From Bacteroidia bacterium (GTDB lineage Bacteria; Bacteroidota; Bacteroidia; Flavobacteriales; Flavobacteriaceae), in the NCBI GenBank assembly GCA_030425285.1, contig JAUIAY010000005.1, forward strand, positions 1 through 64,000: a DNA stretch of 64,000 nucleotides, given 5' to 3'. Positions 2,851 to 30,668 of the stretch are shown here, in pieces (position 1 is the first letter of the stretch; every line of letters begins with the position of its first letter). The position numbers were made by a program, and so were the translations under genes. The notes under the pieces were generated by a model, which did no database searches, was not told the origin of the DNA, and saw only the letters and a list, made by a program, of their open reading frames with translations.

Positions 2851-3248
2851 TTGTATTGAACTCTAAAAATATCAATCAATACATCTGGCGGAACAATTTT
2901 GTTTGGAAAACTTTCCATCAAATACAGCACCTTATTGATAGATTCATGACTTAATCCCATGCGTAAACCAAAATTATGCAATTTTGTTTTGTCCTTTGGG
3001 CTATTCTCTTCATCAATATTCATCAATAAGACCAGCCTATGAAACTGAACAATACGCTCACTATGCGATTCTAAATGGATATAGTTAATGGGATGTTCAA
3101 TTAAATAATCGAAATCCTCCCTAGAGATATCCAGTTGCTTCGCTATCGCCAATAGAAAATTATACTCAATAGGTTTTAGATGACTTTCATTTTTTGCAAA
3201 TGATATCATTTCAGATAGGAGGCTTAATTTTTCAACCCTGTTTATCAT
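2847..3248 (-). CDS. conserved hypothetical, possibly TerB-like helical protein
   Basis: A 133-residue, all-helical-looking cytosolic protein, convergent with uvrB and overlapping its stop by 4 bp. The frame stays open 17 codons further upstream (to 3299), but that extension is a hydrophobic stretch unlike the rest, so I chose the ATG giving MINRVEKLSLLSEMISFAK. The order of helices (a 'LLSEMISFAKNE..LKPIEYNFLLAIAKQLDI' pattern) recalls TerB/DUF533-like tellurite-resistance folds, in which an early helix pair is followed by 'E..ll..ia..l.i'. I do not see the acidic metal-binding residues of true TerB. Function unknown. Confidence 0.7.
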   Translation of the reverse strand: MINRVEKLSLLSEMISFAKNESHLKPIEYNFLLAIAKQLDISREDFDYLIEHPINYIHLESHSERIVQFHRLVLLMNIDEENSPKDKTKLHNFGLRMGLSHESINKVLYLMESFPNKIVPPDVLIDIFRVQYN

Positions 3249-3496
3249 TGTGAGGAGTGGATTATTAATTAGTGTTATAAAGATACAGAGAATGACCATT
3301 TAATAATCCGCTATAAATTGTAACTTGTCGAAAAATGACGTGCGTTTAATCGATATTTTCCTACATTTACTCAAAATAAATTATTTATACATCTGAATAT
3401 GAGATAATTACTGAATTTTTGCATTTCGTCGAGAAATTCAGTTTCACAATTTTCAACTTAAATTTTTAATGTGAAAAATATGACCATTATTACTAT

Positions 3497-3787
3497 ATGA
3501 CAAACAATGATATTTTTAAAAAGCTTCGTGTAGCCTTGAAACTTCGCGATGATGAGATTGTAAAAATTTTAGAATTAGTAGATTTCAGAATTTCCAAAAG
3601 TGAATTGGGTGCTTTTTTCAGAAAGGAAGACCACCCAAAATACAAAGAATGTGGTGATCAAATTTTACGTAATTTCCTCAACGGATTGGTAATCCACTTA
3701 AGAGGGCCTATGCCTCAAAAACAAAAAAAACAGGTTAAGCCTAAAACAGAAACCCTTAAAAAAAACATAAAACATAAAAAAAACTAA
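3497..3787 (+). CDS. DUF1456 (YehS-like) family protein, single repeat
   Basis: 96 residues. The segment NDIFKKLRVALKLRDDEIVKILEL, followed by KSELGAFFRKEDHPKYKECGDQILRNFLNGL, matches one DUF1456 repeat as found in E. coli YehS. YehS has two such repeats (about 150 aa); here only one is present, followed by a lysine-rich tail (QKKQVKPKTETLKKNIKHKKN) that may bind nucleic acid. The biochemical role of the family is not known. It is divergent from the gene at 3248 and 69 bp upstream of the cysH-like gene. Confidence 0.8.
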   Translation: MTNNDIFKKLRVALKLRDDEIVKILELVDFRISKSELGAFFRKEDHPKYKECGDQILRNFLNGLVIHLRGPMPQKQKKQVKPKTETLKKNIKHKKN

Positions 3788-3856
3788 CCGTTTTCTTTTA
3801 TTCCAAAAGCCTTCGCATTAATATTGTAAATTATTAATAGTCGTAATTAAAAATTT

Positions 3857-4549
3857 GTGCCTGTAAATCATCATGACAAAACCCTGTTTACAGAACAGGA
3901 AGTTCGTTTATTGAATAAAAAATATAAGCCTTTAACTCCTAGCAAGCGTTTAGAGACTTTATATCACGATTTCGATGTGGATGAAGTTATGTTAACCAGT
4001 TCCTTTGCTGCAACTTCTGCCTTTTTATTAAAATTAGTTTCCGAAGTCAACAAAAATCAAGAAGTATTTTTTATTGATACGGGCTACCACTTTGATGAAA
4101 CATTAGATTACATGGCGAAGCTTGAGGAACTTTACGAGCTTAATGTAAAATCTATAAGAGCCATAAAAGAAGAATACCTATTTACATTGAAAGATGAAAC
4201 CTGGAAAAAAAATCCAGATTTTTGTTGTTCCATAAACAAGGTGAGACCACTGGACATCATAAAAAAACAATATAGCGTTTGGGTTTCCGGTTTAATGGAA
4301 TGGCAAAGTGACCATAGAGCAACTCTGGATATTTTTGAACAACGTGGCGACATATTAAAATTCTATCCTTTATTGGATGTGACCAAGGAAAGACGCGACA
4401 GCTATATTGAAAAACACAACCTGCCATTTCACCCATTGGTCGCCAAGGGTTATCATTCTATAGGCTGTAAACATTGTACAGTTCCTGGTGAAGACCGAAG
4501 TGGCCGATGGAATAACAACCCAAAAACAGAATGTGGTTTACACTTATAA
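3857..4549 (+). CDS. cysH: phosphoadenylyl/adenylyl-sulfate reductase family protein
   Basis: Reductases of this family convert PAPS or APS to sulfite in assimilatory sulfate reduction. The 230-residue protein has the adenylyl-binding beta strand with the SSFAATSAFLL loop near 48-58, a Cys pair at 123-124 and C204-x2-C207, which together ligate the [4Fe-4S] cluster of APS-type enzymes. The mobile catalytic C-terminus ECGLHL (Cys226) is intact. The conserved Arg in the usual 'SGxRrxQS' motif is Met here (SGLMEWQSDHRA), so substrate preference is uncertain. The start is GTG, the only start that keeps the family N-terminus. No sulfate transporter, cysD or cysN lies nearby. A strong terminator follows immediately. 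Confidence 0.85.
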   Translation: MPVNHHDKTLFTEQEVRLLNKKYKPLTPSKRLETLYHDFDVDEVMLTSSFAATSAFLLKLVSEVNKNQEVFFIDTGYHFDETLDYMAKLEELYELNVKSIRAIKEEYLFTLKDETWKKNPDFCCSINKVRPLDIIKKQYSVWVSGLMEWQSDHRATLDIFEQRGDILKFYPLLDVTKERRDSYIEKHNLPFHPLVAKGYHSIGCKHCTVPGEDRSGRWNNNPKTECGLHL

Positions 4550-4597: not shown

Positions 4598-5788
4598 TTA
4601 AGACAATACCTGTTGAACTTTATCAGCCGCTTCTTGGAATTCCGTAGCGCTCATAACGTCTAATCCTGAATTATCTATTAATTCCTTTGCGATGTCTGCA
4701 TTGGTACCTTGCAAACGCACAATAATTGGCACATTGATAGTTCCCATATTCTTATAAGCATCAATAACACCTTGTGCAACACGGTCACAACGCACAATAC
4801 CTCCAAAGATATTAATCAAGATGGCTTTAACGTTTGGATCCTTTAAAATGATTTTAAAGGCAGCTTCTACTCTAGCAGCATCAGCAGTTCCTCCAACATC
4901 CAAAAAGTTTGCCGGCTCACCACCTGCTTGCTTAATTAAATCCATGGTAGCCATCGCCAATCCAGCACCATTAACCATACAACCTACGTTACCATCTAAA
5001 TCTACATAGTTCAAACCAACTTCTTTAGCTTCAACTTCTATAGGATTTTCTTCACGTAAATCTCTTAAATCGGTGTAATCCTTATGTCTGTAAAGTGCAT
5101 TATCGTCAATAGTCACTTTAGCATCTACAGCCATAATTTTATTGTCACTGGTTTTTAGAACCGGATTGATTTCAAACAATGAAGAATCTGATTTCACATA
5201 AGCAGTATACAAAGCCGAAACAAACTTGGTCATTTCTTTAAAAGCCATACCACTTAAACCTAGATTAAAAGCTATACGTCTTGCTTGGAAAGGCATTAAT
5301 CCTACAGCAGGATCAATTTCTTCTGTAAATATTAAATGAGGTGTTTCTTCAGCAACGGTTTCAATGTCCATACCACCTTCGGTAGAATACATAATCATGT
5401 TACGACCAGTACCACGATTTAATAATACTGACATGTAAAACTCACTTGTTTCACTTTCTCCAGGATAATAAACATCTTCAGCAATAAGTACTTGATGCAC
5501 GCGCTTACCTTCGGCAGAAGTTTGAGGTGTTACCAAGTTCATCCCAATGATTTGCCCAGCAATCTCTTCAACTTCCTTAAGGTTTTTGGCAAGTTTTACA
5601 CCGCCTCCTTTTCCACGTCCACCAGCGTGAACTTGAGCTTTTATAACATGCCAACCAGTACCTGTCTCATCGGTTAATTGTTTGGCAGCAGCAACTGCTT
5701 CTTGAGGATTCTGTGCAACAATTCCACGTTGGATACGCACTCCAAAACTGTTTAATATTTCTTTTCCTTGATATTCGTGTAAGTTCAT
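4598..5788 (-). CDS. sucC: succinyl-CoA synthetase (ADP-forming) beta subunit
   Basis: The TCA-cycle enzyme interconverts succinyl-CoA and succinate with ADP/ATP; SucC carries the ATP-grasp and part of the CoA/succinate site. The 396 residues are full length. It starts with MNLHEYQGKEIL, followed by the ATP-grasp segment VHAGGRGKGGGVKLAK, the metal-binding FEINPVL region, and the C-terminal ligase domain with NFLDVGGTA and INIFGGIVRCD. The alpha subunit (sucD) is not adjacent, as is common in Flavobacteriia. A near-consensus promoter lies 25-56 bp upstream of the ATG. Confidence 0.98.
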   Translation of the reverse strand: MNLHEYQGKEILNSFGVRIQRGIVAQNPQEAVAAAKQLTDETGTGWHVIKAQVHAGGRGKGGGVKLAKNLKEVEEIAGQIIGMNLVTPQTSAEGKRVHQVLIAEDVYYPGESETSEFYMSVLLNRGTGRNMIMYSTEGGMDIETVAEETPHLIFTEEIDPAVGLMPFQARRIAFNLGLSGMAFKEMTKFVSALYTAYVKSDSSLFEINPVLKTSDNKIMAVDAKVTIDDNALYRHKDYTDLRDLREENPIEVEAKEVGLNYVDLDGNVGCMVNGAGLAMATMDLIKQAGGEPANFLDVGGTADAARVEAAFKIILKDPNVKAILINIFGGIVRCDRVAQGVIDAYKNMGTINVPIIVRLQGTNADIAKELIDNSGLDVMSATEFQEAADKVQQVLS

Positions 5789-5844: not shown

Positions 5845-5937
5845 TAAATTTTAACGGAAGTATTTGCTATGCTTTTTAATTGACTGAAATTTGATATAAA
5901 TACCTGTATATTCTATGGACTGTACCAAATTACTTTT

Positions 5938-5945
5938 TAGCTTTG
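5938..5945 (+). promoter_or_regulatory. -7 element of lysA promoter
   Basis: TAGCTTTG matches TAnnTTTG, 20 bp before the lysA ATG. I do not see a good TTG at the expected distance upstream. Confidence 0.5.
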
Positions 5946-5965
5946 CGAATCTTAAAATTTAAAAA

Positions 5966-7171
5966 ATGAATTCAAGAACCTTATTACAAATTGCAGTGGA
6001 CCATGGTAGTCCTGTTTACGTTTACAACTCCGAAAAAATTGTATCCCAATATAAACGTTTAACAAATGCTTTTAATAAGGTCAAACAGGTTAAGATTAAC
6101 TATGCCGTAAAAGCGCTATCAAATGTTTCGGTATTGAAACTCATGAATTCTTTGGGTTCTGGACTAGACACAGTTTCTATTCAAGAAGTAAAACTAGGAA
6201 TGTTAGCAGGGTTTTCACCTGAAAACATTATTTACACACCCAATGGTGTATCACTTGAAGAAATAGAACATGCTGCCAGTTTAGGTGTTCAAATAAATAT
6301 TGACAACCTATCCATATTGGAACAGTTTGGCACTAAATTTCCAAAAACACCTGTTTGCATCAGAATCAACCCACATGTTATGGCTGGTGGAAACACCAAT
6401 ATTTCTGTTGGACATATAGATAGTAAGTTCGGTATTTCCATACATCAAATCCCTCATATTTTACGTATTGTTGAAAACACAAAGATGAATATCAATGGTA
6501 TCCACATGCATACAGGAAGTGACATTCTGGATATTGATGTGTTTTTGTATGCCAGCGAAATTCTATTTGAAACTGCTAAAAACTTTTCAGATCTAGAATT
6601 TATAGATTTTGGCTCTGGTTTTAAAGTGCCTTATAAAGAAGGAGACATCGAAACCAATATTGAAGAGTTTGGCAAAAAATTGAGCAAGCGTTTTAATGAA
6701 TTCTGCAAAGAATATGGCAAAGATCTCACTTTGGCTTTTGAACCAGGGAAATTTTTAGTGAGCGAAGCTGGCTATTTTTTAACCAAAGTTAATGTGGTCA
6801 AACAAACAACCTCAACTGTATTTGCACAAATAGACTCTGGTTTCAACCACCTTATTCGCCCAATGCTATACGGATCGCAACATGAAATTATCAATATTTC
6901 CAATCCAAAAGGACGAGAACGCTTTTACTCGGTTGTAGGATATATTTGTGAGACGGATACATTTGCCAATAATCGCCGTATAAATGAAATTACCGAAGGT
7001 GATATTTTGGCATTTAAAAATGCTGGTGCTTACTGCTACTCTATGGCGTCTAACTATAATTCAAGATACAGACCAGCAGAAGTTCTATGGCATGATGGCA
7101 AAGCCCATTTAATCCGTAAACGTGAAACGTTTGATGATATTCTCAAAAACCAAGTTGAAATAGCCTTGTAG
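5966..7171 (+). CDS. lysA: diaminopimelate decarboxylase
   Basis: Catalyses the last step of lysine synthesis, meso-diaminopimelate to L-lysine, with pyridoxal phosphate. The 401-residue protein is a fold-type III PLP enzyme: the Schiff-base lysine is Lys49 in YAVKAL, the glycine-rich phosphate loop is in FIDFGSGFKVPY, the EPGKFLV motif binds PLP/substrate, and VGYICETDTFA carries the active-site Cys and Asp from the partner subunit. The final AGAYCYSMASNYNSR is typical of LysA. It appears monocistronic, with its own -7 element; the Rieske gene follows after 88 bp. Confidence 0.95.
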   Translation: MNSRTLLQIAVDHGSPVYVYNSEKIVSQYKRLTNAFNKVKQVKINYAVKALSNVSVLKLMNSLGSGLDTVSIQEVKLGMLAGFSPENIIYTPNGVSLEEIEHAASLGVQINIDNLSILEQFGTKFPKTPVCIRINPHVMAGGNTNISVGHIDSKFGISIHQIPHILRIVENTKMNINGIHMHTGSDILDIDVFLYASEILFETAKNFSDLEFIDFGSGFKVPYKEGDIETNIEEFGKKLSKRFNEFCKEYGKDLTLAFEPGKFLVSEAGYFLTKVNVVKQTTSTVFAQIDSGFNHLIRPMLYGSQHEIINISNPKGRERFYSVVGYICETDTFANNRRINEITEGDILAFKNAGAYCYSMASNYNSRYRPAEVLWHDGKAHLIRKRETFDDILKNQVEIAL

Positions 7172-7259
7172 ACATCTGTCTGTTTGACGAATTCTATTGT
7201 TTTGATTTGCTCATGTGGTGAATTTACTGTAATTTTTATGACCATAAATTTCGGTGCCC

Positions 7260-8345
7260 ATGAGCAAAAAATTCGTTGTCGATCCAGATATAAAAGTTGC
7301 AGAGACTTTGCCTGCCGAGTTTTATAGAAGCCAAACAGTTTTTGAGGATATCAAGGAAAAAGTATTTGTAAAGACCTGGCAATTTATAGGTGATGAAAAC
7401 CTAGTGCCGTTTACACAGACGGTTCATCCATTTATTCTATTAGACAATTATATTACAGAACCATTGGTACTTTCCAGAGACGAAGAGGATAGTATTAAAT
7501 GTTTTAGTAATGTCTGCACACATCGCGGTAATATTGTTATAAACAATCCTGGCAAAGTAAAGCAATTAAGGTGTATGTATCACGGAAGGCGTTTTGCATT
7601 GGATGGAACCTTCAAATCGATGCCTGAATTTGAAGAAGCTGAAAATTTTCCCAGGCCTTGTGATAGTTTAAGAGAGTTTTTGGTGCGAACTCTTGGTCCT
7701 TTTGTTTTTGTAGGATTGAATCCTTCTTTCGATTTAGATGATGTATTAAGTGTGATGATAGAACGCATTGGTTTTTTACCATTGCATCAGTTTAAATTGG
7801 ACACGGGCTCAAGCAAGGATTATCTAGTTAATTGCCATTGGGCCTTATATTGCGATAATTATTTGGAAGGTTTCCATATTCCTTTTGTTCATGATGACCT
7901 TAATAGTGTTTTAGATTATGGAAATTACACAACAGAAATCTACACTCATTGCAATTTACAGATAGGTTATGCTAATGAAGGTGAAGAAGTATTTGATTTA
8001 CCACAATACCACAGGGATTATGGAGAAAATATAGCGGCCTATTACTATTGGATTTTCCCAAATATGATGTTCAATTTTTATCCTTGGGGATTGTCGATTA
8101 ATGTTGTAAAGCCTATCAGCTTGAACAAAACCAAAGTATCTTTTATTACCTACGTTTACGATGAAACAAAACTGAATAAAGGTGCTGGTGCTCTATTGGA
8201 CAAAGTAGAGCGAGAAGATGAATTCGTAGTAGAAGGTGTCCACAAAGGCGTACAATCGCGTTATTATAACACTGGACGATTTTCCCCAACTCGCGAAAAA
8301 GGGGTTCACCATTTTCACGGCCTACTTGCTAAATATCTAAAATAG
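7260..8345 (+). CDS. Rieske non-haem iron oxygenase, alpha-subunit type
   Basis: A 361-residue ring-hydroxylating-oxygenase-like protein. The N-terminal Rieske domain has C-T-H-R-G ... C-M-Y-H-G (CxH, 16 residues, CxxH), which binds a [2Fe-2S] cluster. The C-terminal SRPBCC catalytic domain carries DNYLEGFHIPFVH, whose two His with a later Asp would form the mononuclear iron triad. The frame includes a GTG two codons earlier, but the ATG beginning MSKKFVVD is preferred. Electron-transfer partners are not nearby, so the substrate (choline/carnitine-type or aromatic) cannot be told. An AHSA1-like gene follows 1 bp after the stop, suggesting co-transcription. Confidence 0.85.
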   Translation: MSKKFVVDPDIKVAETLPAEFYRSQTVFEDIKEKVFVKTWQFIGDENLVPFTQTVHPFILLDNYITEPLVLSRDEEDSIKCFSNVCTHRGNIVINNPGKVKQLRCMYHGRRFALDGTFKSMPEFEEAENFPRPCDSLREFLVRTLGPFVFVGLNPSFDLDDVLSVMIERIGFLPLHQFKLDTGSSKDYLVNCHWALYCDNYLEGFHIPFVHDDLNSVLDYGNYTTEIYTHCNLQIGYANEGEEVFDLPQYHRDYGENIAAYYYWIFPNMMFNFYPWGLSINVVKPISLNKTKVSFITYVYDETKLNKGAGALLDKVEREDEFVVEGVHKGVQSRYYNTGRFSPTREKGVHHFHGLLAKYLK

Positions 8346-8346
8346 T

Positions 8347-8859
8347 ATGGAAAAATTACAATGGCACTCATTCGAGAAAAAGATTTACATCAAGTCAAGT
8401 ATTGAAACACTCTACGAATTATGGGCAACCGAAAAAGGTATCACCTCTTGGTTTTTGAGTCAAGCTAAATTTAAGGATTTACAGGGAAACACCCGAAGTA
8501 ATGAGGAGCATATTCAAGTAAAAGATACCTATACTTGGTATTGGCATAATTGGGATGGTGAAGCCAACGGAACCATATTACAGGCCAATGGTAAAGATTA
8601 TTTGGAGTTTACTTTTGAAGGCTCTAAAGTCTGTATAAAATTGGAAGAAAAAAATGGAGTTGTCATTGTTATTTTAAAACAATTTGAAATTCCGGAAGAT
8701 GATGAAAGTAAATTACGCATACATTTTGGTTGTAGTAACGGATGGACTTTTTGGCTCACGAACTTAAAAGCTTTTGTAGAGCATGGCATTTTGCTTAATG
8801 AAACTGAAATTAATTTAAAAGAAAACGAGCTTTCTGGCTATGTGTTTGTGAACATGTAA
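8347..8859 (+). CDS. SRPBCC / AHSA1-domain protein
   Basis: 170 residues of the START-like fold annotated as activator of Hsp90 ATPase homologue 1-like. The N-terminus shows the family pattern FEKKIYIKSSIETLYELWATEKGITSWF, and the C-terminus ends in the long helix with HFGCSNGWTFWLTNLKAFVEHG. Members form a hydrophobic cavity for small lipophilic ligands; their bacterial roles are mostly unknown. It starts 1 bp after the Rieske oxygenase and is probably translated from the same mRNA, so a ligand or product-handling role for that pathway is possible but unproven. Confidence 0.85.
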   Translation: MEKLQWHSFEKKIYIKSSIETLYELWATEKGITSWFLSQAKFKDLQGNTRSNEEHIQVKDTYTWYWHNWDGEANGTILQANGKDYLEFTFEGSKVCIKLEEKNGVVIVILKQFEIPEDDESKLRIHFGCSNGWTFWLTNLKAFVEHGILLNETEINLKENELSGYVFVNM

Positions 8860-8931
8860 TTTACATACTTTTTTTCACTACCTTTAAAATCTCCTCAAGT
8901 CTTTTTAATAGCATATAAAAGACTCGTAATT

Positions 8932-9111
8932 ATGAAACCGACCAAATTTTTTGCGCCAAGTGCTGCAATAAATTTTGTCTCAAATCACTATTCAAAACCT
9001 ACAAATCGTTTCTTGCCGCTAAATTTTGCTATCTACTCAATAGATACTGCAAATAGCACTTGCTTTTCCAATTTTTTAAAAATCACTTTTAACCAATCAA
9101 AACCTATATGA
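8932..9111 (+). CDS. possible 59-aa upstream ORF overlapping the SGNH gene start (doubtful)
   Basis: An ATG-initiated 59-codon frame fills most of the 8860-9107 gap and ends in ATGA, its TGA overlapping the ATG of the SGNH gene, an arrangement typical of translational coupling. Its composition argues against a folded protein: many Asn, Ser and Phe and a single acidic residue. It may be a leader or chance. Otherwise I see nothing in this intergenic stretch. Confidence 0.2.
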   Translation: MKPTKFFAPSAAINFVSNHYSKPTNRFLPLNFAIYSIDTANSTCFSNFLKITFNQSKPI

Positions 9112-10145
9112 ACCTTAAACAATCATTCTTTGTTGCCCTAATCTTAAGCTTTGTTGCTGTAGTATCATGGGAATGCTATTGGCGCTATCAAGGCCTAGAA
9201 CCTAATATTGACGACAATAAAAACCTTTGGGCTAATCAGCGTGCAAAACTGAAAAATTTTAAGCCCAATACAGCTGTATTTATTGGCTCATCCAGAATAC
9301 TCTATGACATTCAATTGGATGTTTGGGAACAAGAAACAAACACCAAACCAGTCATGCTAGCTGTTCAAGGTGCTTCACCGCTACCTGTTTTTAAAGATAT
9401 TGTTGAAAAAACGGATTACAATGGCTTATTAGTTGTTGGTGTGACACCTGGCTTGTTTTTTTCTACCTTATTTCCTCAAGCTTCACCTATAAAACGACCA
9501 CAATCACTTGTAGAATATTATTATGATAGAACCTATGCACAACGTCTTAACCATGCATTATCCGTTCCTCTTCAAAAGTATTTGGCTTTTTATAGAGATG
9601 GTGATGAGGCTTGGGACACCGATGTTGACCTTAAAACACTTATAAGCCGTATTAAACTAGAGCCTCGTTCGGAACCCTTTTATCCACCTTTCAACAATTT
9701 TGAAGAAATTACTTTAGAAAGACATATGAAAATGCCAGAGCGCATGATAACAGACACAGCCTATGCCAACACGGTCAAAGAGGCTTGGAAAGCTATTTTA
9801 GGTGGTGATTTCCCACCTCCAGAACGAGAAGCAACAACGAATGCTTTTGTGGAGCTAGCTAAAAAATTCAAGGAAAAGGGCGGAAATCTCATTTTGGTTA
9901 GATGTCCTTCATCAGGTCTTTTTAAGGAAGTTGAAAGCAAAGGATTTCCAAGAAATGCTTTTTGGGATGGGTTGGTTGAACAAGTAGGAGCCAAAAGCTA
10001 TAATTACATGGACTATGAACAATTCAGTAATTTACATTTACCTGAATGGTCTCACCTTTCAACTGAAGATGCTAGATTCTTCACATCAGAACTCATTAAA
10101 ATAATGAAAGCTGACGGTATTTTGTTTAATTCTAAAACTAACTAA
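9108..10145 (+). CDS. membrane-anchored SGNH/GDSL-like protein, partner of MBOAT acyltransferase
   Basis: 345 residues with one N-terminal membrane segment (about residues 7-22) and a presumably periplasmic domain. FIGSSRILYDIQ near residue 64 fits SGNH block I, with Ser as the nucleophile, and LPEWSHLSTEDARFF near the end fits the block V His position. This is the layout of AlgJ/AlgX/DltD/PatB-type proteins, which accept an acyl group from an MBOAT protein and pass it to a cell-surface polymer. The MBOAT gene begins 2 bp after the stop, which strongly supports the pairing. The block V Asp is not in its usual place (EWSH), so the catalytic set should be regarded as tentative. Confidence 0.75.
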   Translation: MNLKQSFFVALILSFVAVVSWECYWRYQGLEPNIDDNKNLWANQRAKLKNFKPNTAVFIGSSRILYDIQLDVWEQETNTKPVMLAVQGASPLPVFKDIVEKTDYNGLLVVGVTPGLFFSTLFPQASPIKRPQSLVEYYYDRTYAQRLNHALSVPLQKYLAFYRDGDEAWDTDVDLKTLISRIKLEPRSEPFYPPFNNFEEITLERHMKMPERMITDTAYANTVKEAWKAILGGDFPPPEREATTNAFVELAKKFKEKGGNLILVRCPSSGLFKEVESKGFPRNAFWDGLVEQVGAKSYNYMDYEQFSNLHLPEWSHLSTEDARFFTSELIKIMKADGILFNSKTN

Positions 10146-10147
10146 TT

Positions 10148-11563
10148 ATGCTATTTAATTCATTAAGCTTCGTGGTGTTTTTGGTAATAGTTTTAGCACT
10201 CTATTACTCAAAACTATTTAGTTGGACCAATAAAAAGCGAATGTTGTTATTGGCTAGTTATATATTCTATGGTTTGTGGAATCCGCCTTTAGTAATTTTA
10301 CTTTGGATTTCAACCGTAGTCGATTGGACGGCTGGAAAACAATTGGCTATAGAAGAAAATCAGAAAAAGCGTAAAATGTGGTTGTTGTTAAGCATGTTTG
10401 TAAATCTTGGCTTTTTAGCATTCTTTAAATATGGTAATTTCCTGTTAGAAAACTTTACTAGCTGCTTAAATGCCATAGGTTTTGAATATCAAGCCCAACC
10501 TATGGATATTATATTACCAATGGGTATTTCGTTTTATACGTTCCAGACCATGTCTTATACCATAGATATGTATAAACGAAAGATTGAACCAGCAAGAACC
10601 TTTTTGGATTTTGCGCTTTACGTCACGTTTTTCCCGCAACTGGTTGCAGGTCCAATTGTAAGAGCTAAAGACTTGATAACCCAATTTTATGAAGAGAAAA
10701 AAGCAACGGCCAATCAGTTTTTTTGGGGAGCATTTTTATTAACTATCGGCTTGTTTCAAAAAGTAGTTTTAGCCGACACCTTACTTGCTGAAACTTCAGA
10801 TACTGTTTTTGGTTCAAAAGATGTGTTACATAGTTTAGATGCTTGGACAGGAACATTGGCTTTTTCAGGACAGATATTTTTTGATTTTGCTGGTTATTCA
10901 ACTTGTGCTATAGGTATTGCTCTCATGTTAGGGATTATTTTACCGGACAACTTTAGGTATCCTTATGCTGCCATAGGTTTTTCAGATTTGTGGAAACGTT
11001 GGCACATTTCTCTTTCCAGCTGGTTAAGGGATTACCTCTATATTCCTTTGGGAGGCAATCGACATGGAATAACCAGAATGTATGTTGCTTTAATGCTTAC
11101 AATGTTACTAGGTGGATTATGGCATGGTGCCGCATGGACTTTTGTGATCTGGGGAGCCCTTCACGGCATCTATTTGGTGGTTGAACGTTTATTAAAAAAT
11201 AATATTAAAATCAAAATAACACCTGTAAACGGAATCGTTTTGGCATTGTTGACCTATATGCTGGTCAATATTACTTGGGTTTTCTTTAGAGCAAGGGAAT
11301 TTGTTACTGCCAAAAATATGATTGCTTCAATGTTTTTTATGAATTCAGAAGGCAAAAAAGTACTGCAATCATTCGACATTATAAAAGTACTAGTAGTTAT
11401 TACTTTACTATTTATATGTCATTGGCTTATGAGAAATACAAATATGAAAGCCGTATCTAAAAAAACCAACCCAATTATTTTAGGTGTGTTTTGGGCCGTT
11501 TTGGTTTTCCTAATTATCATTGCCCAAGGCAGTGGTGAACAATTTATTTATTTTCAATTTTAA
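10148..11563 (+). CDS. MBOAT family O-acyltransferase (AlgI/DltB-like)
   Basis: 471 residues, polytopic (roughly ten membrane segments). It begins MLFNSLSFVVFLVIV like AlgI/PatA, contains PMGISFYTFQTMSYTIDMYK and LVAGPIVRA, and holds the catalytic His in LLGGLWHGAAWTFVIWG, with a second conserved His shortly before it in RWHISLSSWLRDYLYIPLGG. MBOAT proteins move acyl (usually acetyl) groups across the inner membrane. With the upstream SGNH protein it likely O-acetylates an exopolysaccharide, peptidoglycan or other envelope glycan. No polysaccharide synthesis genes are adjacent, so the acceptor is unknown. Confidence 0.93.
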   Translation: MLFNSLSFVVFLVIVLALYYSKLFSWTNKKRMLLLASYIFYGLWNPPLVILLWISTVVDWTAGKQLAIEENQKKRKMWLLLSMFVNLGFLAFFKYGNFLLENFTSCLNAIGFEYQAQPMDIILPMGISFYTFQTMSYTIDMYKRKIEPARTFLDFALYVTFFPQLVAGPIVRAKDLITQFYEEKKATANQFFWGAFLLTIGLFQKVVLADTLLAETSDTVFGSKDVLHSLDAWTGTLAFSGQIFFDFAGYSTCAIGIALMLGIILPDNFRYPYAAIGFSDLWKRWHISLSSWLRDYLYIPLGGNRHGITRMYVALMLTMLLGGLWHGAAWTFVIWGALHGIYLVVERLLKNNIKIKITPVNGIVLALLTYMLVNITWVFFRAREFVTAKNMIASMFFMNSEGKKVLQSFDIIKVLVVITLLFICHWLMRNTNMKAVSKKTNPIILGVFWAVLVFLIIIAQGSGEQFIYFQF

Positions 11564-11690
11564 ATTATTTCATTCAATTGATTTATTAAATATAAACCAA
11601 AAGCAGAAATAAGTGATTGTTGAGTTATTTATAATGTCATAATTATTAGTTAAAGCACTTCTTAAATTCTTTTAGCTATAACAAAGCCAG

Positions 11691-11698
11691 TATCTTTG
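11691..11698 (+). promoter_or_regulatory. -7 element before the 39-aa membrane protein
   Basis: TATCTTTG is a perfect TAnnTTTG box, 15 bp before the ATG of the small gene at 11714. No convincing -33 TTG was seen. Confidence 0.5.
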
Positions 11699-11713
11699 TA
11701 GCAAATAATTGTT

Positions 11714-11833
11714 ATGGACGGTTTTAGTATAGTTATGGCATTTGCAATTATCCTTTTCGCTAGATTAGGAATGCGACTGATAACTAAATATTTTGAAATG
11801 AAGCGTGAGGAAAAGGAAGAAAAACAACACTAG
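11714..11833 (+). CDS. 39-aa single-span membrane protein
   Basis: A small gene in the 358-bp gap between the MBOAT gene and the DinB-like gene. The product begins MDGFSIVMAFAIILFARLG, one hydrophobic helix of about 17 residues, and ends in a highly charged tail (EMKREEKEEKQH). The -7 box 15 bp upstream and the well-behaved amphipathic layout support a real micro-protein rather than noise. Similar single-span mini-proteins in other bacteria modulate membrane complexes, but nothing here shows its partner. The remaining ~90 bp on each side hold nothing else I recognise. Confidence 0.55.
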   Translation: MDGFSIVMAFAIILFARLGMRLITKYFEMKREEKEEKQH

Positions 11834-11921
11834 CCTTTACAAATCCCTGTTAAAAGTCAATCCATTTTTAAATAAGTTATAAAAAGCGAATGCTTTAGTT
11901 TGCCAAGGTATGTATTTGCTA

Positions 11922-12485
11922 TTATTCTTTTAGCTTCCCATTAAACACACTGACTTTAGAATTGAACGGATTGCCAGACGATCTTCTTAAAAGCACTATT
12001 TGACCACAATGCCAAACCGCATCTTCAATCGGTCCGTTAATTTGATTCCAAAATGGAAATTCTCTAGTTCCAAAAATAAGCTTGTACTGACTAATATCGT
12101 CACTGCTCCTTAAAATATCGGCCGCTGTTTTAAAATTGATTAACGTTGCTTTTCGCATATTTTCAAAACTCAATTCAGATTCATCAGTTTTTTGGGAATT
12201 ATCTTTTTTTAAGGTAGCATTCACAATGACTTTAGACAAACCATAAATATGCTCAATGGTTTCTAAAGAAGAACGCGCATCATCATTCGGTTTAAAATTT
12301 AAATCTTCTGTTCTTAAACCCTCTGTTGCCCAATAATACCGAAAGCCTAAACCATCTATTGCTCTTGCCGCTACGGTTCCAGCAGTAAACGATTCGGGAT
12401 ATTCAGGAATTTCGTAATAAGGTAATTGCTCTTGAGATTGAACGGAAAGAGTAATCAACAAAATTATTAATACTAACTTATTCAT
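11922..12485 (-). CDS. secreted DinB-like superfamily protein
   Basis: 187 residues with a signal peptide (MNKLVLIILLITLSVQSQ). The mature part resembles the DinB/YfiT four-helix fold: LETIEHIYGLSKVIVNA and AVWHCGQIVLLRRSSGNP supply two His at positions used for metal binding in that family. DinB-like proteins bind a divalent metal and often act as thiol-dependent transferases; a secreted version is less usual. It follows the M28 peptidase gene by 1 bp on the same strand, so the two are almost certainly one operon. Function unknown. Confidence 0.7.
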   Translation of the reverse strand: MNKLVLIILLITLSVQSQEQLPYYEIPEYPESFTAGTVAARAIDGLGFRYYWATEGLRTEDLNFKPNDDARSSLETIEHIYGLSKVIVNATLKKDNSQKTDESELSFENMRKATLINFKTAADILRSSDDISQYKLIFGTREFPFWNQINGPIEDAVWHCGQIVLLRRSSGNPFNSKVSVFNGKLKE

Positions 12486-26994: not shown

Positions 26995-28251
26995 TTGACT
27001 GAAAAAAGTAAAATAAAAATAAAGAACTTCGGACCAATTAAGGAAGGATTTGGTGATGAATGGATTGATATTAATAAAGTAACTGTTTTAATAGGGAATC
27101 AAGGCAGTGGAAAAAGCACAGTTGCCAAATTAATATCTGTTTTTTCTTGGCTTGAGAAGTCGTTATTCAAACAAACGGTATTAAAAAGAGAGGTCACAAG
27201 AAAATCTAAATTTGAAAATTTTTATTGCGAATATCAAAATTTAAAAAACTACTTTAAACCTAATACTGAAATTGAATTTTTTGGAATAGCTTATCATTTT
27301 CATTACAAAAAAAACAGATTAAGCATTAGTGAAATTAAAGAGAGAAAATATTCCGTTCCAAAAATAATGTATGTACCTGCTGAAAGAAACTTTGTAAGTG
27401 CTGTTTCCCAGCCAGAAAAGCTTAGGTATTTACCTAAAACTTTATATACTTTTCTTGAAGAATTTGATAGATCTAAACAAGAACTTTCTGAATCTTTAAA
27501 AATCCCAATCAACAACCTTAAATTTTCTTATGATAATAAAAAAGGGGAATCTAAAATAATTGGAGAGAATTACAATTTACCTTTATACGAAGCTTCAAGT
27601 GGACTACAATCGTCAATACCATTGTATTTAGTCTCAAAAAATCTTAGTGAAGGAATTAATAGAAATTTTGACAATTCTGTGGCCAAAGAGAGTTTAGAAG
27701 AGATGAGGTTTTTAAGAAATCGTATTCTTACTATTTTAAAAAATGACAAGCTTACTGAAGAACTAAAAAACCAAGCATTGGAACTACTTTCCTCAGTAAC
27801 AAGAAATGATTGCTTCGTAAATATTGTTGAGGAACCAGAACAAAATCTGTTTCCTACTTCTCAATGGGAAATTCTCAAAAAACTTTTGGAATTCAACAAT
27901 TCTAATGTGGAAAATAAGTTAATAATCACAACTCACAGCCCATATTTAGTGAATTTTATGAGCATTGCAATTCAAGCTGACTATTTAAAAAAGAAGTTAT
28001 TTGATTTAAATAACAATAGTTCCTTAATCAAAAAATTGAATACTATTATATCAAGTGATTCCACTCTCCCGTTTTCAGATTTTGTACTATACCAATTAGA
28101 AGAAAAAAATGGAACGATTATTAAATTACCAAACACAGAAGGTATTCCATCTAGTAAAAACTTTTTAAATCAATCATTACATCATGGAAATGATATGTTT
28201 GACAAGCTATTAGAAATTGAACAAGAACTAGAAGTTCAAAAAAGCTCATGA
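26995..28251 (+). CDS. ABC/OLD-type AAA ATPase, candidate defence protein
   Basis: 418 residues of the AAA_15/AAA_21 (ABC-ATPase-like) group that supplies motor/sensor subunits in several anti-phage systems. Visible motifs: the N-terminal strand IKNFGPIKEGFG, Walker A GNQGSGKST at 34-42, MYVPAERNFV near 125-134, a signature-like EASSGLQSSIPL near 199-210, Walker B with catalytic Glu VNIVEEPEQNLFP near 275-287, and an H-loop TTHSPYL near 312-318. There is no TOPRIM domain at the C-terminus, so it is not a complete OLD nuclease. The start is TTG with no better choice in frame. The DNA is clearly AT-richer than its neighbours, which suggests transfer. The next gene overlaps by 4 bp (ATGA). Confidence 0.85.
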   Translation: MTEKSKIKIKNFGPIKEGFGDEWIDINKVTVLIGNQGSGKSTVAKLISVFSWLEKSLFKQTVLKREVTRKSKFENFYCEYQNLKNYFKPNTEIEFFGIAYHFHYKKNRLSISEIKERKYSVPKIMYVPAERNFVSAVSQPEKLRYLPKTLYTFLEEFDRSKQELSESLKIPINNLKFSYDNKKGESKIIGENYNLPLYEASSGLQSSIPLYLVSKNLSEGINRNFDNSVAKESLEEMRFLRNRILTILKNDKLTEELKNQALELLSSVTRNDCFVNIVEEPEQNLFPTSQWEILKKLLEFNNSNVENKLIITTHSPYLVNFMSIAIQADYLKKKLFDLNNNSSLIKKLNTIISSDSTLPFSDFVLYQLEEKNGTIIKLPNTEGIPSSKNFLNQSLHHGNDMFDKLLEIEQELEVQKSS

Positions 28252-28745
28252 GTTTAAACTTTTTCAAAGATGAATGCCAACATGAACCAATTAATATAGA
28301 AACTTTTGGATTGTGTGATGATGACGATAACAATCAAGCATATCCAGATACAAATATTGACAATCAAGATGATTGGATAGCAACAGTTAAAAACACCAAC
28401 AATTTAGATATTGTTTTTACAGCTATTGATAAATGCGTATTAAAAGATGGCGAATTCCCAAATAGAGGGAGGTGTGATTGTATGTTAACCACAGATCAAC
28501 ATCTATATTTGGTTGAACTGAAAAACCAAAAACCCCCATGGCAATCTAATGCAGTTGAACAACTAAAATCAACTATTCAATTTTTACTTGAAAAACATGA
28601 CATTTCTTCTTTTAACAAAAAAAAAGCATTTGCTTGTAATAAAAAGAAAGGAAAATTTGTTTTTATCGATAATGAAGAAAATTTGATGATGTATAGAAAA
28701 ACTGGTTTTCGAATTGACATTCAATCAGAAGTCCTAATAATTTAA
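28248..28745 (+). CDS. PD-(D/E)xK-nuclease-like partner of the ATPase
   Basis: 165 residues, no family recognised with certainty. The segment GRCDCMLTTDQHLYLVELKNQK reads as a PD-(D/E)xK core: Asp77 on the first strand, then Glu90-Leu-Lys92 on the next, followed by a helix with AVEQLKSTIQFL, the position where restriction-like folds often carry Gln. The N-terminus is acidic (LCDDDDNNQAYPD) and the C-terminus forms a short strand-rich end. Its ATG overlaps the ATPase stop (ATGA), so the two are translationally coupled and probably form a complex. If the fold call is right, this is the effector of a two-gene defence module. It could instead be a non-catalytic adaptor. Confidence 0.7.
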   Translation: MSLNFFKDECQHEPINIETFGLCDDDDNNQAYPDTNIDNQDDWIATVKNTNNLDIVFTAIDKCVLKDGEFPNRGRCDCMLTTDQHLYLVELKNQKPPWQSNAVEQLKSTIQFLLEKHDISSFNKKKAFACNKKKGKFVFIDNEENLMMYRKTGFRIDIQSEVLII

Positions 28746-28855
28746 ACCAAAAAGATACTACAACAACATTCATTACGCTCTTAACACATAACAAAGTAGA
28801 GGATTTAGCGAAGCTAATCTAAAGGATTACCTAATATTATTTATCACGAGAAAGT

Positions 28856-29527
28856 CTTTATTAGTCATGATCCACCTTTGATTGACCATGTTCTACTTTT
28901 GATTGGTCATGTTCCACTTGTGATTAACAATGTTCCACCTTTGATTGACCATGTTCCACTTTAGATTGACTATGTTCCACTTTTGATTAGTCATGTTCCA
29001 TCTTTGATTGACCATGTTCCACCTTTGATTAGCCATGTTCTACTTTTGATTGAGTATGTTCCACTTTTGATTGACCATGTTCTACTTTTGATTGAGTATG
29101 TTCCACTTTTGATTGAGTATGTTCCACTTTTGATTGACCATGTTCCACTTTTGATTGACTAGTACAAAGTTTTGATTAAGTGGTACAAACCTTTGATTAA
29201 GTGGTACAAACCTTTGATTAGATGGTACAAAGTTGTGATTGAGTGGTACAATATTTTGATTGGTCGGTACAAAGTTGTGATTGAGTGGTACAAAGTTGTG
29301 ATTAACCACCACAAAGTTGTGATTAGGTGGTACAAACTTTTGATTGATTGGTACAAAGTTTTGATTAGCTACCACAAAGTTTTGATTGGTCACCGCAAAG
29401 TTTTGATTGGTCACCGCAAACTTTTGATTAACCACCACAAAGTTTTGATTAGTTACCGCAAACTTTTGATTGGATGGTACAAAGTTGTGATTGGTCATTC
29501 CAGTCTTTTGACTATTCACCGCAAAAC
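28856..29527. repeat. array of 32 tandem 21-bp repeats with a core change at the midpoint
   Basis: This occupies most of the 854-bp gap between 28745 and 29600. I can align 32 units of exactly 21 bp (672 bp) without a single indel. Each unit is TTTGATT + a variable triplet + an 11-base core. In units 1-14 (28856-29149) the 3' part reads CATGTTCCACT; in units 16-32 (29171-29527) it reads TGGTACAAAGT or CACCACAAAGT-like; unit 15 (29150-29170) is the junction. The variable triplet is purine-purine-N in units 1-31 (GAC, GGT, AAC, GAG, AAG, AGC...). Frames are open on both strands over the right block: minus-strand 29082-29546 would encode 7-residue repeats like NQNFVPL, plus-strand 29172-29534 IKWYKPL. 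Several left-block units carry stops. Bases 28746-28855 hold nothing recognisable. Confidence 0.95.
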
Positions 29528-29539
29528 CATATAACCAAA

Positions 29540-29600
29540 TAACCAAATCAACAGTCTACCGTCTTCGGTCTTCCATCTTCAGTCTTCTGCCTTCCGTCAT
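29540..29600. repeat. short pyrimidine-rich degenerate repeat (GTCTTC-type)
   Basis: Directly after the 21-bp array: five to six degenerate copies of (C/A)(A/G)GTCTTC/CGTCTTC, including ACCGTCTTCGGTC, a 13-mer that recurs at 50996-51008 in the other repeat-rich gap. Probably a dispersed low-complexity element of the genome. Confidence 0.6.
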
Positions 29601-30508
29601 CAACTAATCAGCAAATCCTCCAAAGCAGGTTTTAAATTCACAAATTGAAATTCAAAACCCTTGTTTTCAATTTTTTTAGAACTCACCCGTTGGCTTTCAA
29701 ATAAGAGAATATGCATCTCGCCCAATACCAGTTTCATCATGGTTTTTGGGATGTTGGGTAATATTAAAGGACGTTTTAAGGTGCTAGCAACCGCTTTTGT
29801 CAATTCGGTATTACTCACTGGGTTTGGAGCTACGCCATTAAAGACACCATCCAATTGATGTTGGGCTACATACATAAATATACCTGCCAAATCATCAACA
29901 TGTATCCAGGATTGCCATTGCTTACCACTGCCAAAAGCCGCTCCCATTCCAAATTTGGTGGGTTTAACAATCTGTGGCAAGGCACCTTCTTGGGCATCCA
30001 AAACCAAACCAATACGCACTTTGGATACTGTTATATCCAATGCTTTAAAAGCATCGGCTTCAGTCTCCCACTTTTCAACAACGGTTCCTAAAAAACTATC
30101 GGAATAGGTTGGAAAAGTTTCTTCGTAATAATTGGTCAGAGAATCAGGGTATGCACCAATGGCACTGGCAGAAATTAACTGTTTAACAGTATGTTTTGTA
30201 GTAGAAAGTTTGCTATGGAGTAATCTTAAAGTGTTTATACGACTATCCAAAATCGTTTGTTTGTAGGATGCCGTCCAACGCTTGGCAATACTCGCACCTG
30301 CCAGATTGATGATAGCGTCCACACCATCAAAACAAGCCTCGTCAATTATTTCATCTTTATGATTCCAATAAAAGCCTTTGTAGGTATCCGAGTTTTCAAT
30401 TTTAGATTTGGAAGTCGTTAAATAATGGACCATCCAACCCTTTGCCAAGCATTGTTTTACAATAGCTTGACCAATTAAACCCGTTGCTCCTGTAATGAGA
30501 ACCTTCAT
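29600..30508 (-). CDS. TIGR01777-type NAD(P)-dependent epimerase/oxidoreductase
   Basis: 302 residues of the extended short-chain dehydrogenase fold. MKVLITGATGLIGQAIVKQ is the nucleotide-binding GxxGxxG start; LINLAGASIAKRWT and LISASAIGAYPD (with the usual Tyr replaced by the YY in TNYYEE) are typical of the TIGR01777/YfcH group, as is the C-terminal DUF1731 segment LPNIPKTMMKLVLGEMHILLFESQRV. Substrate unknown. The ATG at 30508 is preferred over a TTG two codons upstream. Confidence 0.93.
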   Translation of the reverse strand: MKVLITGATGLIGQAIVKQCLAKGWMVHYLTTSKSKIENSDTYKGFYWNHKDEIIDEACFDGVDAIINLAGASIAKRWTASYKQTILDSRINTLRLLHSKLSTTKHTVKQLISASAIGAYPDSLTNYYEETFPTYSDSFLGTVVEKWETEADAFKALDITVSKVRIGLVLDAQEGALPQIVKPTKFGMGAAFGSGKQWQSWIHVDDLAGIFMYVAQHQLDGVFNGVAPNPVSNTELTKAVASTLKRPLILPNIPKTMMKLVLGEMHILLFESQRVSSKKIENKGFEFQFVNLKPALEDLLIS

Positions 30509-30668
30509 AAACAATTTTTTGTAAAGATACGGATTACCAACGCCAAAGGTTTTAGGTTTAATTAAGGTTTAACAGATTTAACGGTTGTTAACAGAAAAGC
30601 TAATACGCTGCTTAAATTTCGCTAATTCTTAATTGCTCGAAGCATTTGGCTCTCAAGCTCACCGAATG

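Follow-up and report, generated by a model that had tools for sequence, protein, structure and literature searches.

A dispersed family of phased 21-bp repeat arrays at the right border of replaced chromosomal segments in Flavobacteriaceae

Layout of the array and extent of the repeat family

The window considered here is the whole 64,000-nucleotide stretch (positions 1 to 64,000, forward strand) of contig JAUIAY010000005.1 in the Bacteroidia bacterium assembly GCA_030425285.1 (Flavobacteriaceae; genome G000 below). Flanked by the 3' ends of two convergent genes, it carries a tandem array of contiguous 21-bp units with zero indels (Table 1). The original prediction of 32 such units in perfect phase was confirmed by unit splitting and, independently, by TRF, which reports period 21 in two overlapping halves (28866–29159 and 29149–29493). 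In each unit a core NNTKATT (positions 1–7) is followed by a purine-purine-N triplet, then by a word of six bases and a tail of five. The predicted TTTGATT start, with rare changes, is exact in 23/32 units, the remainder starting TGTGATT (six units), CTTTATT, TTAGATT or TTTGACT (one unit each), and purines indeed occupy positions 8–9 in units 1–31, with ATT at positions 8–10 of unit 32. Units 1–14 are CATGTT-like, with unit 1 divergent, while the later units are of GTAC and ACxxC types, and the array can thus be read as a run of sub-types. Neighbouring units are most alike, with unit identity dropping from 0.76 to 0.57 with distance. GTCTTC-type heptamer repeats lie immediately to the right of several arrays, including that of the window (29552–29602) and that of locus L015.

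Table 1. Features of the window at and around the 21-bp array
Feature	Coordinates	Strand	Evidence or remarks
Replaced segment	26850..28855	+	No BLASTN match to the same site in G003 or G004, from about -2006 to the left edge of the array
Cargo gene A	26995..28251	+	AAA_15 ATPase (Pfam); PADLOC PDC-M29A, E 2.4e-165
Cargo gene B	28248..28745	+	PADLOC PDC-M29B, E 3.2e-67; weak Pfam PDDEXK_9 match, below cut-off
Cargo-array junction	28746..28855	+	R''-like motif ACTACAACAACATTC about 12 bp past the stop codon
21-bp array, 32 units	28856..29527	+	31/32 units pass the position-weight threshold
Right edge	29528..29599	+	Matches G004 from the first base (39 bp, 95 %), followed by GTCTTC-type heptamer repeats
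Conserved right-hand gene (NAD-dependent epimerase, DUF1731)	29600..30514	-	Homologue beside an array in G003 (94 % identity) and G004 (79 %)

The array is not a chance occurrence, as BLAST comparison against its own genome recovered seven further arrays (E 2e-75 to 5e-7), giving eight in total. A covariance model based on sequence alone (R1), for which 38 four-unit segments were aligned gap-free, had 61 matches in G000, all inside these eight places. Arrays are present in 5/5 genomes of the genus (G000–G004). The proposal that the unit be sought in other Flavobacteriaceae was borne out by G042, a genome of another genus: among 249 family genomes at least three matched (G000, G004 and G042), representing at least two of 235 genera, and among 395 genomes of the class at least two matched (G000 and G586), these searches having scored the best 18 or 11 candidates per genome, such that weaker arrays may be missed. 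The G586 match, from a distant family, was rejected, being read as a different, ATGAATAATG-type repeat. Two of the four analysed G042 arrays (L100 and L101, on contigs C14 and C29) end contigs; arrays may therefore break assemblies, and array counts from draft genomes may be low.

Across the family, positions 13–17 alternate among a few words (TTCC, TGTT, GTAC and ACxxC), and a 62-bp exact stretch is common to arrays on two contigs. Unit counts at one syntenic site are about 31, 29 and 12 in three species. At a second, before a ychF-like gene, the array has 9 units in G002 and 24 in G042; by eye, G000 and G004 retain about one remnant unit, and G001 and G003 have lost or lack any. The arrays thus combine a tandem unit in the 10–100 bp range with copy number differing between relatives, here between species, as bacterial minisatellites (VNTRs) do.

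A four-unit pattern scan of genome and viral contig collections proved too loose, returning at least 137 loci, of which 74 had a 7-bp self-identity of at least 0.6, the remaining 63 being inspected by eye; no same-family array with its words was recognised by eye among the matches listed. The model check on 61/137 of these loci gave 12 matches at E ≤0.001, the best (3.9e-9) being an array of 9 % GC. Arrays of a Neobacillus (L147), a Chitinophaga bin (L135) and a Bacteroidetes bin (L141) have the TGATTG core in common and were not counted as relatives, given that the scan pattern itself nearly demands this core. In Fictibacillus gelatini (L124, L201 and L223) a dispersed element presents TTATTGTC every 21 bp with differing bases between, and may be another phased repeat family.

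Phase and the distribution of base changes

Phase and base change were analysed in 18 arrays from six genomes (355 units), fourteen arrays being from the genus and four from G042. Position-weight scanning of each array with 80 bp on either side gave 321 spacings, of which 316 are 21 bp, three are 42 bp (a unit below threshold) and two, of 24 and 54 bp, lie at array ends. No phase shift was seen inside any of the 18 arrays, which were themselves delimited by phase, such that an internal shift could escape if it lay over 80 bp from the end of a run. By eye, a 1-bp deletion occurs in two end units (the first on C15 and the last on C16). Over the same arrays, neighbouring units differ by 1554 bases in 337 pairs, type switches included. 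Length variation with loss of phase had been named at the outset as an outcome that would tell against constraint; between species copy number does vary, and phase is kept.

A random spread of changes across the unit, the other such outcome, is likewise far from what the between-species data show. The 128 genus pairs with at most five differences hold 421 changes, distributed very unevenly over the unit (chi-square p about 7e-46). The ATT core (positions 5–7) takes three of these, against 60 expected if changes were even, while positions 8–12 take 216, and 270/421 are transitions. Variation in the family is not confined to the single hypervariable triplet of the original prediction: positions 8–12 and 18–1 vary, 13–17 switches words, and the purine-purine pattern reflects largely transitions rather than a free hypervariable codon.

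Change concentrates in two blocks, near positions 10 and 20, with quiet blocks about one helical turn apart between them, part of the quiet at positions 13–17 arising because pairs with at most five changes are mostly of one type. In the genus a 10.5-bp harmonic accounts for 0.55 of the variance, and in G042, at nearly equal phase, for 0.45. Permutation gave p values of 0.0004 and 0.003, respectively, and an autocorrelated null 0.025 and 0.008, the latter being only moderate and the two genera not independent. This periodicity is suggestive of recognition on one helix face, short of proof. The units also repeat directly and in phase at about two helical turns, as expected of iteron-type arrays. 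With phase kept inside 18 arrays and the same periodicity in two genera, the DNA-level constraint originally proposed as one of two readings gains support.

Replaced segments, cargo genes and attC-like sites

Synteny was assessed at five sites in seven pairwise comparisons, using 4.5 kb on each side, the plus strand and matches longer than 60 bp. Four of the G000 sites recur in sister species, namely those of the window (G003 and G004), C15 (G004), C7 (G001) and C16 (G003), while the fifth is the ychF-like site, with arrays in G002 and G042. The right flank is homologous from 1–169 bp of the array in 6/7 comparisons, and from 85/486 bp in the seventh. On the left, all seven comparisons lack a match over 1.1 kb or more, counted on the shorter side; at the window site homology returns about 2.0–2.3 kb to the left of the array. 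With the right flank homologous and the left unmatched, the array marks the right-hand border of a segment that has been replaced. Wherever a gene upstream of the array is in view (17 arrays), the array follows the stop codon of that gene and shares its orientation, no divergent interval being occupied; orientation is informative in the tandem cases only, because agreement is automatic in convergent intervals.

The two genes at 26995–28745, within the replaced segment of the window, are a candidate PDC-M29 phage-defence system on the basis of their profile matches. PADLOC also matched PDC-M37A/B at C14 and, at G042 C17, a type IIG restriction enzyme; the array-side cargo further includes an nSTAND3 NTPase at C7 and, at the window site of G004, a CoiA-like nuclease. 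Overall, 5/20 cargo proteins scanned with PADLOC were matched and 15 were not; the cargo is thus mixed. In G000 C6 a cation-efflux gene comes with a complete attC-like site, and, judged from the translations, a closely similar gene precedes an array in G042.

The sites of integron cassettes, attC, are composed of R''/L''/L'/R' halves, and the terms attC, R'' and L'' are applied here to sequences resembling them. The 21-bp array itself is not known to belong to an attC or attI. A first attC pattern was out of register and did not rise above the control, and was rejected; a second, of the first-half motif, matched 12 times in G000 and 0 times in the control. By a strict rule, 20/32 first-half matches in the loci examined lack a second half, array-side sites included. 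By eye no second half was seen beside the window array, where the R''-like motif alone remains. Fourteen selected complete sites (ten by rule and four by eye, with L281, at a contig start, and L295, with a long insert, left out) share invariant GGCTATA/ATTGC and GCAAC/CATAGCC halves. The motif [CT]AACA[AT] occurs within 40 nt of the stop codon in 9/12 scorable array-side genes of the genus against 16/157 others (Fisher p 1.4e-6, an optimistic value as the motif was picked after viewing array-side sequences); two of the 14 array-side genes, with uncertain ends, were left out, and G042 stood outside the test. By eye, about seven of the 16 motif-bearing control genes are neighbouring cassette-type genes.

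Pairing of the two cassette ends can be read directly at C7 (GTTGCCAG on the left and CTGGCAAC on the right) and at the G003 window site (GTTGTACAC and GTGTACAAC), and amounts to 7/8 at C8; the G004 window site has a left junction without a matching right end. A left-border hairpin element (ATAAACRC..GYGTTTATCCAA|TTGTTG) is intact before the cargo at 4/17 array loci and at the G000 ychF-like site, is diverged at C15 and at the G001 ychF-like site, was not recognised in the window, and occurs also at array-less sites. The attC-like sites at L011, L014 and L280 stop near one point, after CTACTTCT or a near variant. This point is the start of the array or of its remnant, L280 being the array-less ychF-like site. 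Not every cassette site has an array, since attC-like sites lie outside the array places at L307, L308, L331 and L336. The integron integrase model TIGR02249 found matches in 5/5 genomes, all below cut-off, and likewise in 14/14 control genomes.

Several loci deserve separate mention. L307 (G000 C6:143000-151477; 3160–4431, 5303–5429) has a tyrosine recombinase ORF of 423 codons (Pfam Phage_integrase), which the integron integrase model matches in split form and which lies one gene upstream of a complete attC-like site; similar arrangements occur in G003 C9 and G001 C4. L308 (G000 C4:70000-88000) contains, at 5889–12026, a cluster of genes resembling cassettes, with several attC-like sites that share one orientation; none of the eight array places of G000 lies there. 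L331 (G000 C7) and L333 (G003 C9) represent one address, by eye beside a mannose-1-phosphate guanylyltransferase-like gene, at which the left-border hairpin is present and the cargo, by eye, differs largely between the two species. REP-like palindromic repeats, of the CGTCATTGCGA, TGTCATGCTGAAC and TGTCATTCC types, abut the right ends of the arrays at L012, L010, L016 and L094.

Interpretation and comparison with known systems

The arrays are dispersed, conserved in site and phase, unevenly changed and linked to cassettes. Our preferred explanation, held with slightly less than even confidence, is that they form a dispersed non-coding DNA-level element, probably a protein-binding platform, capping cassette-exchange sites on their downstream side. 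Each unit would be a two-turn DNA module read on one helix face, and the array a cooperative platform for a putative DNA-binding protein at the cassette end. It may act at the DNA level as a boundary, or as an aid to recombination or synapsis in cassette exchange, while arrays would grow and shrink by local duplication and swap units between sites. A fuller version of this explanation, which we consider unlikely as a whole, would make the arrays the functional end-piece of integrase-less, integron-like receiving platforms across these chromosomes. In these, a promoter-like stretch and hairpin would form the left border, followed by one or a few exchangeable cassettes, at times carrying phage-defence systems, and the phased protein-binding array would fix the right border, letting cassettes swap between sites and species.

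The main rival, serious although somewhat less than likely, is that the arrays are relics or selfish minisatellites, by-products without function that arose where decayed attC remnants underwent slippage and unequal exchange. Phase would then be kept because whole units duplicate, and the core would be conserved through common descent and exchange between arrays. The signature of local duplication, the widely different copy numbers at one site, the near-absence of units at the ychF-like site in four genomes and the presence of other tandem repeats nearby are all as such a history would leave them, and an intergenic minisatellite family is known in Porphyromonas gingivalis (PMC4596501). However, relics predict even changes between nearest neighbours, and the ATT core is nearly exempt from them; that no in-array phase shift was seen beside the many base differences also tends to speak against this rival.

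An RNA-level element is improbable. On this reading the cassette transcript would end in the array as its 3' untranslated part, with a role in termination, stability or protein binding, which agrees with the orientation common to the 17 arrays and their upstream genes, an agreement that is automatic in the convergent intervals. Against this, folding energy was not below that of dinucleotide shuffles (30 per test) in 12/18 arrays on both strands, with a single exception among the 24 tests having a z-score below -2 (the sense strand of C8, -3.2). A search of Rfam over 28700–29700 of the window gave one hit, far below the gathering score; neither low folding energy nor an Rfam match thus marks a structured RNA, and an exact 21-nt phase is not needed for RNA binding.

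Still less probable is selection on a heptapeptide repeat, the other reading of the original prediction, which fails in the genus. The in-register frames do have far fewer stops than the other frames, and the sense frame is stop-free in 3/14 genus arrays (9–14 units). G042 has one stop in 89 sense-frame units, a 281-codon ORF and codon-position counts of 48/26/45, and its arrays may be coding. Nevertheless, the two in-register frames hold two and three stops in the window array, and 15 and 24 in the eight G000 arrays (173 units). Both hold stops in most genus arrays, the antisense frame being stop-free in 1/14 and both frames together in none, and the commonest change at core position 3, T to A, creates TAG in the sense frame. 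Changes in the genus fall evenly on codon positions 1, 2 and 3 (136/146/139), and an ORF through the array combined with a codon-position bias is not found there.

Least probable of all is a minisatellite within a miniature transposable element such as BrickBuilt of P. gingivalis, which is similarly dispersed and intergenic with a unit of about two turns and conserved and variable positions (PMC4596501), since an all-against-all comparison of the flanks of 16/18 arrays (160 bp on the left, 300 bp on the right) revealed no common leader or tail. The flank matches found joined syntenic copies, right flanks carrying dispersed repeats (one match of 213 bp, C1 and G002), sequences within or between the two sides of C14 and C16, and left pieces of 43 and 36 bp, at two loci each.

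If the arrays are phased DNA elements bound by a protein, as in the preferred explanation, they would add a new component to cassette-exchange sites and offer a way into the replacement of accessory genes, including candidate phage-defence pairs, at fixed addresses. The array would also be a natural saturation experiment, with hundreds of units from which a binding motif may be readable before the protein is known. If they are relics only, they would still represent an unusually clean satellite that keeps phase while diverging.

Among the matches listed from the repeat and integron literature, with subscription journals mostly outside, no publication describes such arrays at cassette ends. Of the publications found, BrickBuilt and the heptamer repeats are nearest in kind. 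BrickBuilt has a 23-bp unit at 19 dispersed intergenic places in 1 to 22.8 copies, with 0–6 % indels within elements, and many of its copies carry a leader and a tail bearing inverted ends (PMC4596501). The present arrays share with it the dispersed intergenic location, the roughly two-turn unit and the combination of conserved and variable unit positions. They differ in their 21-bp unit, in the phase shift seen in none of them, in the lack of common ends and in forming the right border of replaced DNA; they adjoin exchangeable cassettes, while no cassette link was found in the accessible text on BrickBuilt (PMC4596501). Intergenic heptamer direct repeats are described from Bacteroidetes, Cyanobacteria and Beggiatoaceae (PMC4679880). 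These resemble the arrays as intergenic tandem repeats in Bacteroidetes, and 21 is three times seven, but in the main genome studied there they consist of one 7-bp sequence mostly just upstream of start codons (PMC4679880), in contrast to the 21-bp unit of core and alternative words lying downstream of genes.

The likeness to integron gene cassettes and CALIN (PMC8618304) lies in the often attC-like ends of array-side genes, the replaced contents of fixed sites, and the complete attC-like sites elsewhere in these genomes. Unlike in integrons, the attC-like sequence beside the arrays is cut short. Iterons and other phased binding arrays repeat directly and in phase at about two helical turns per unit, and the 21-bp arrays resemble them in just this arrangement.
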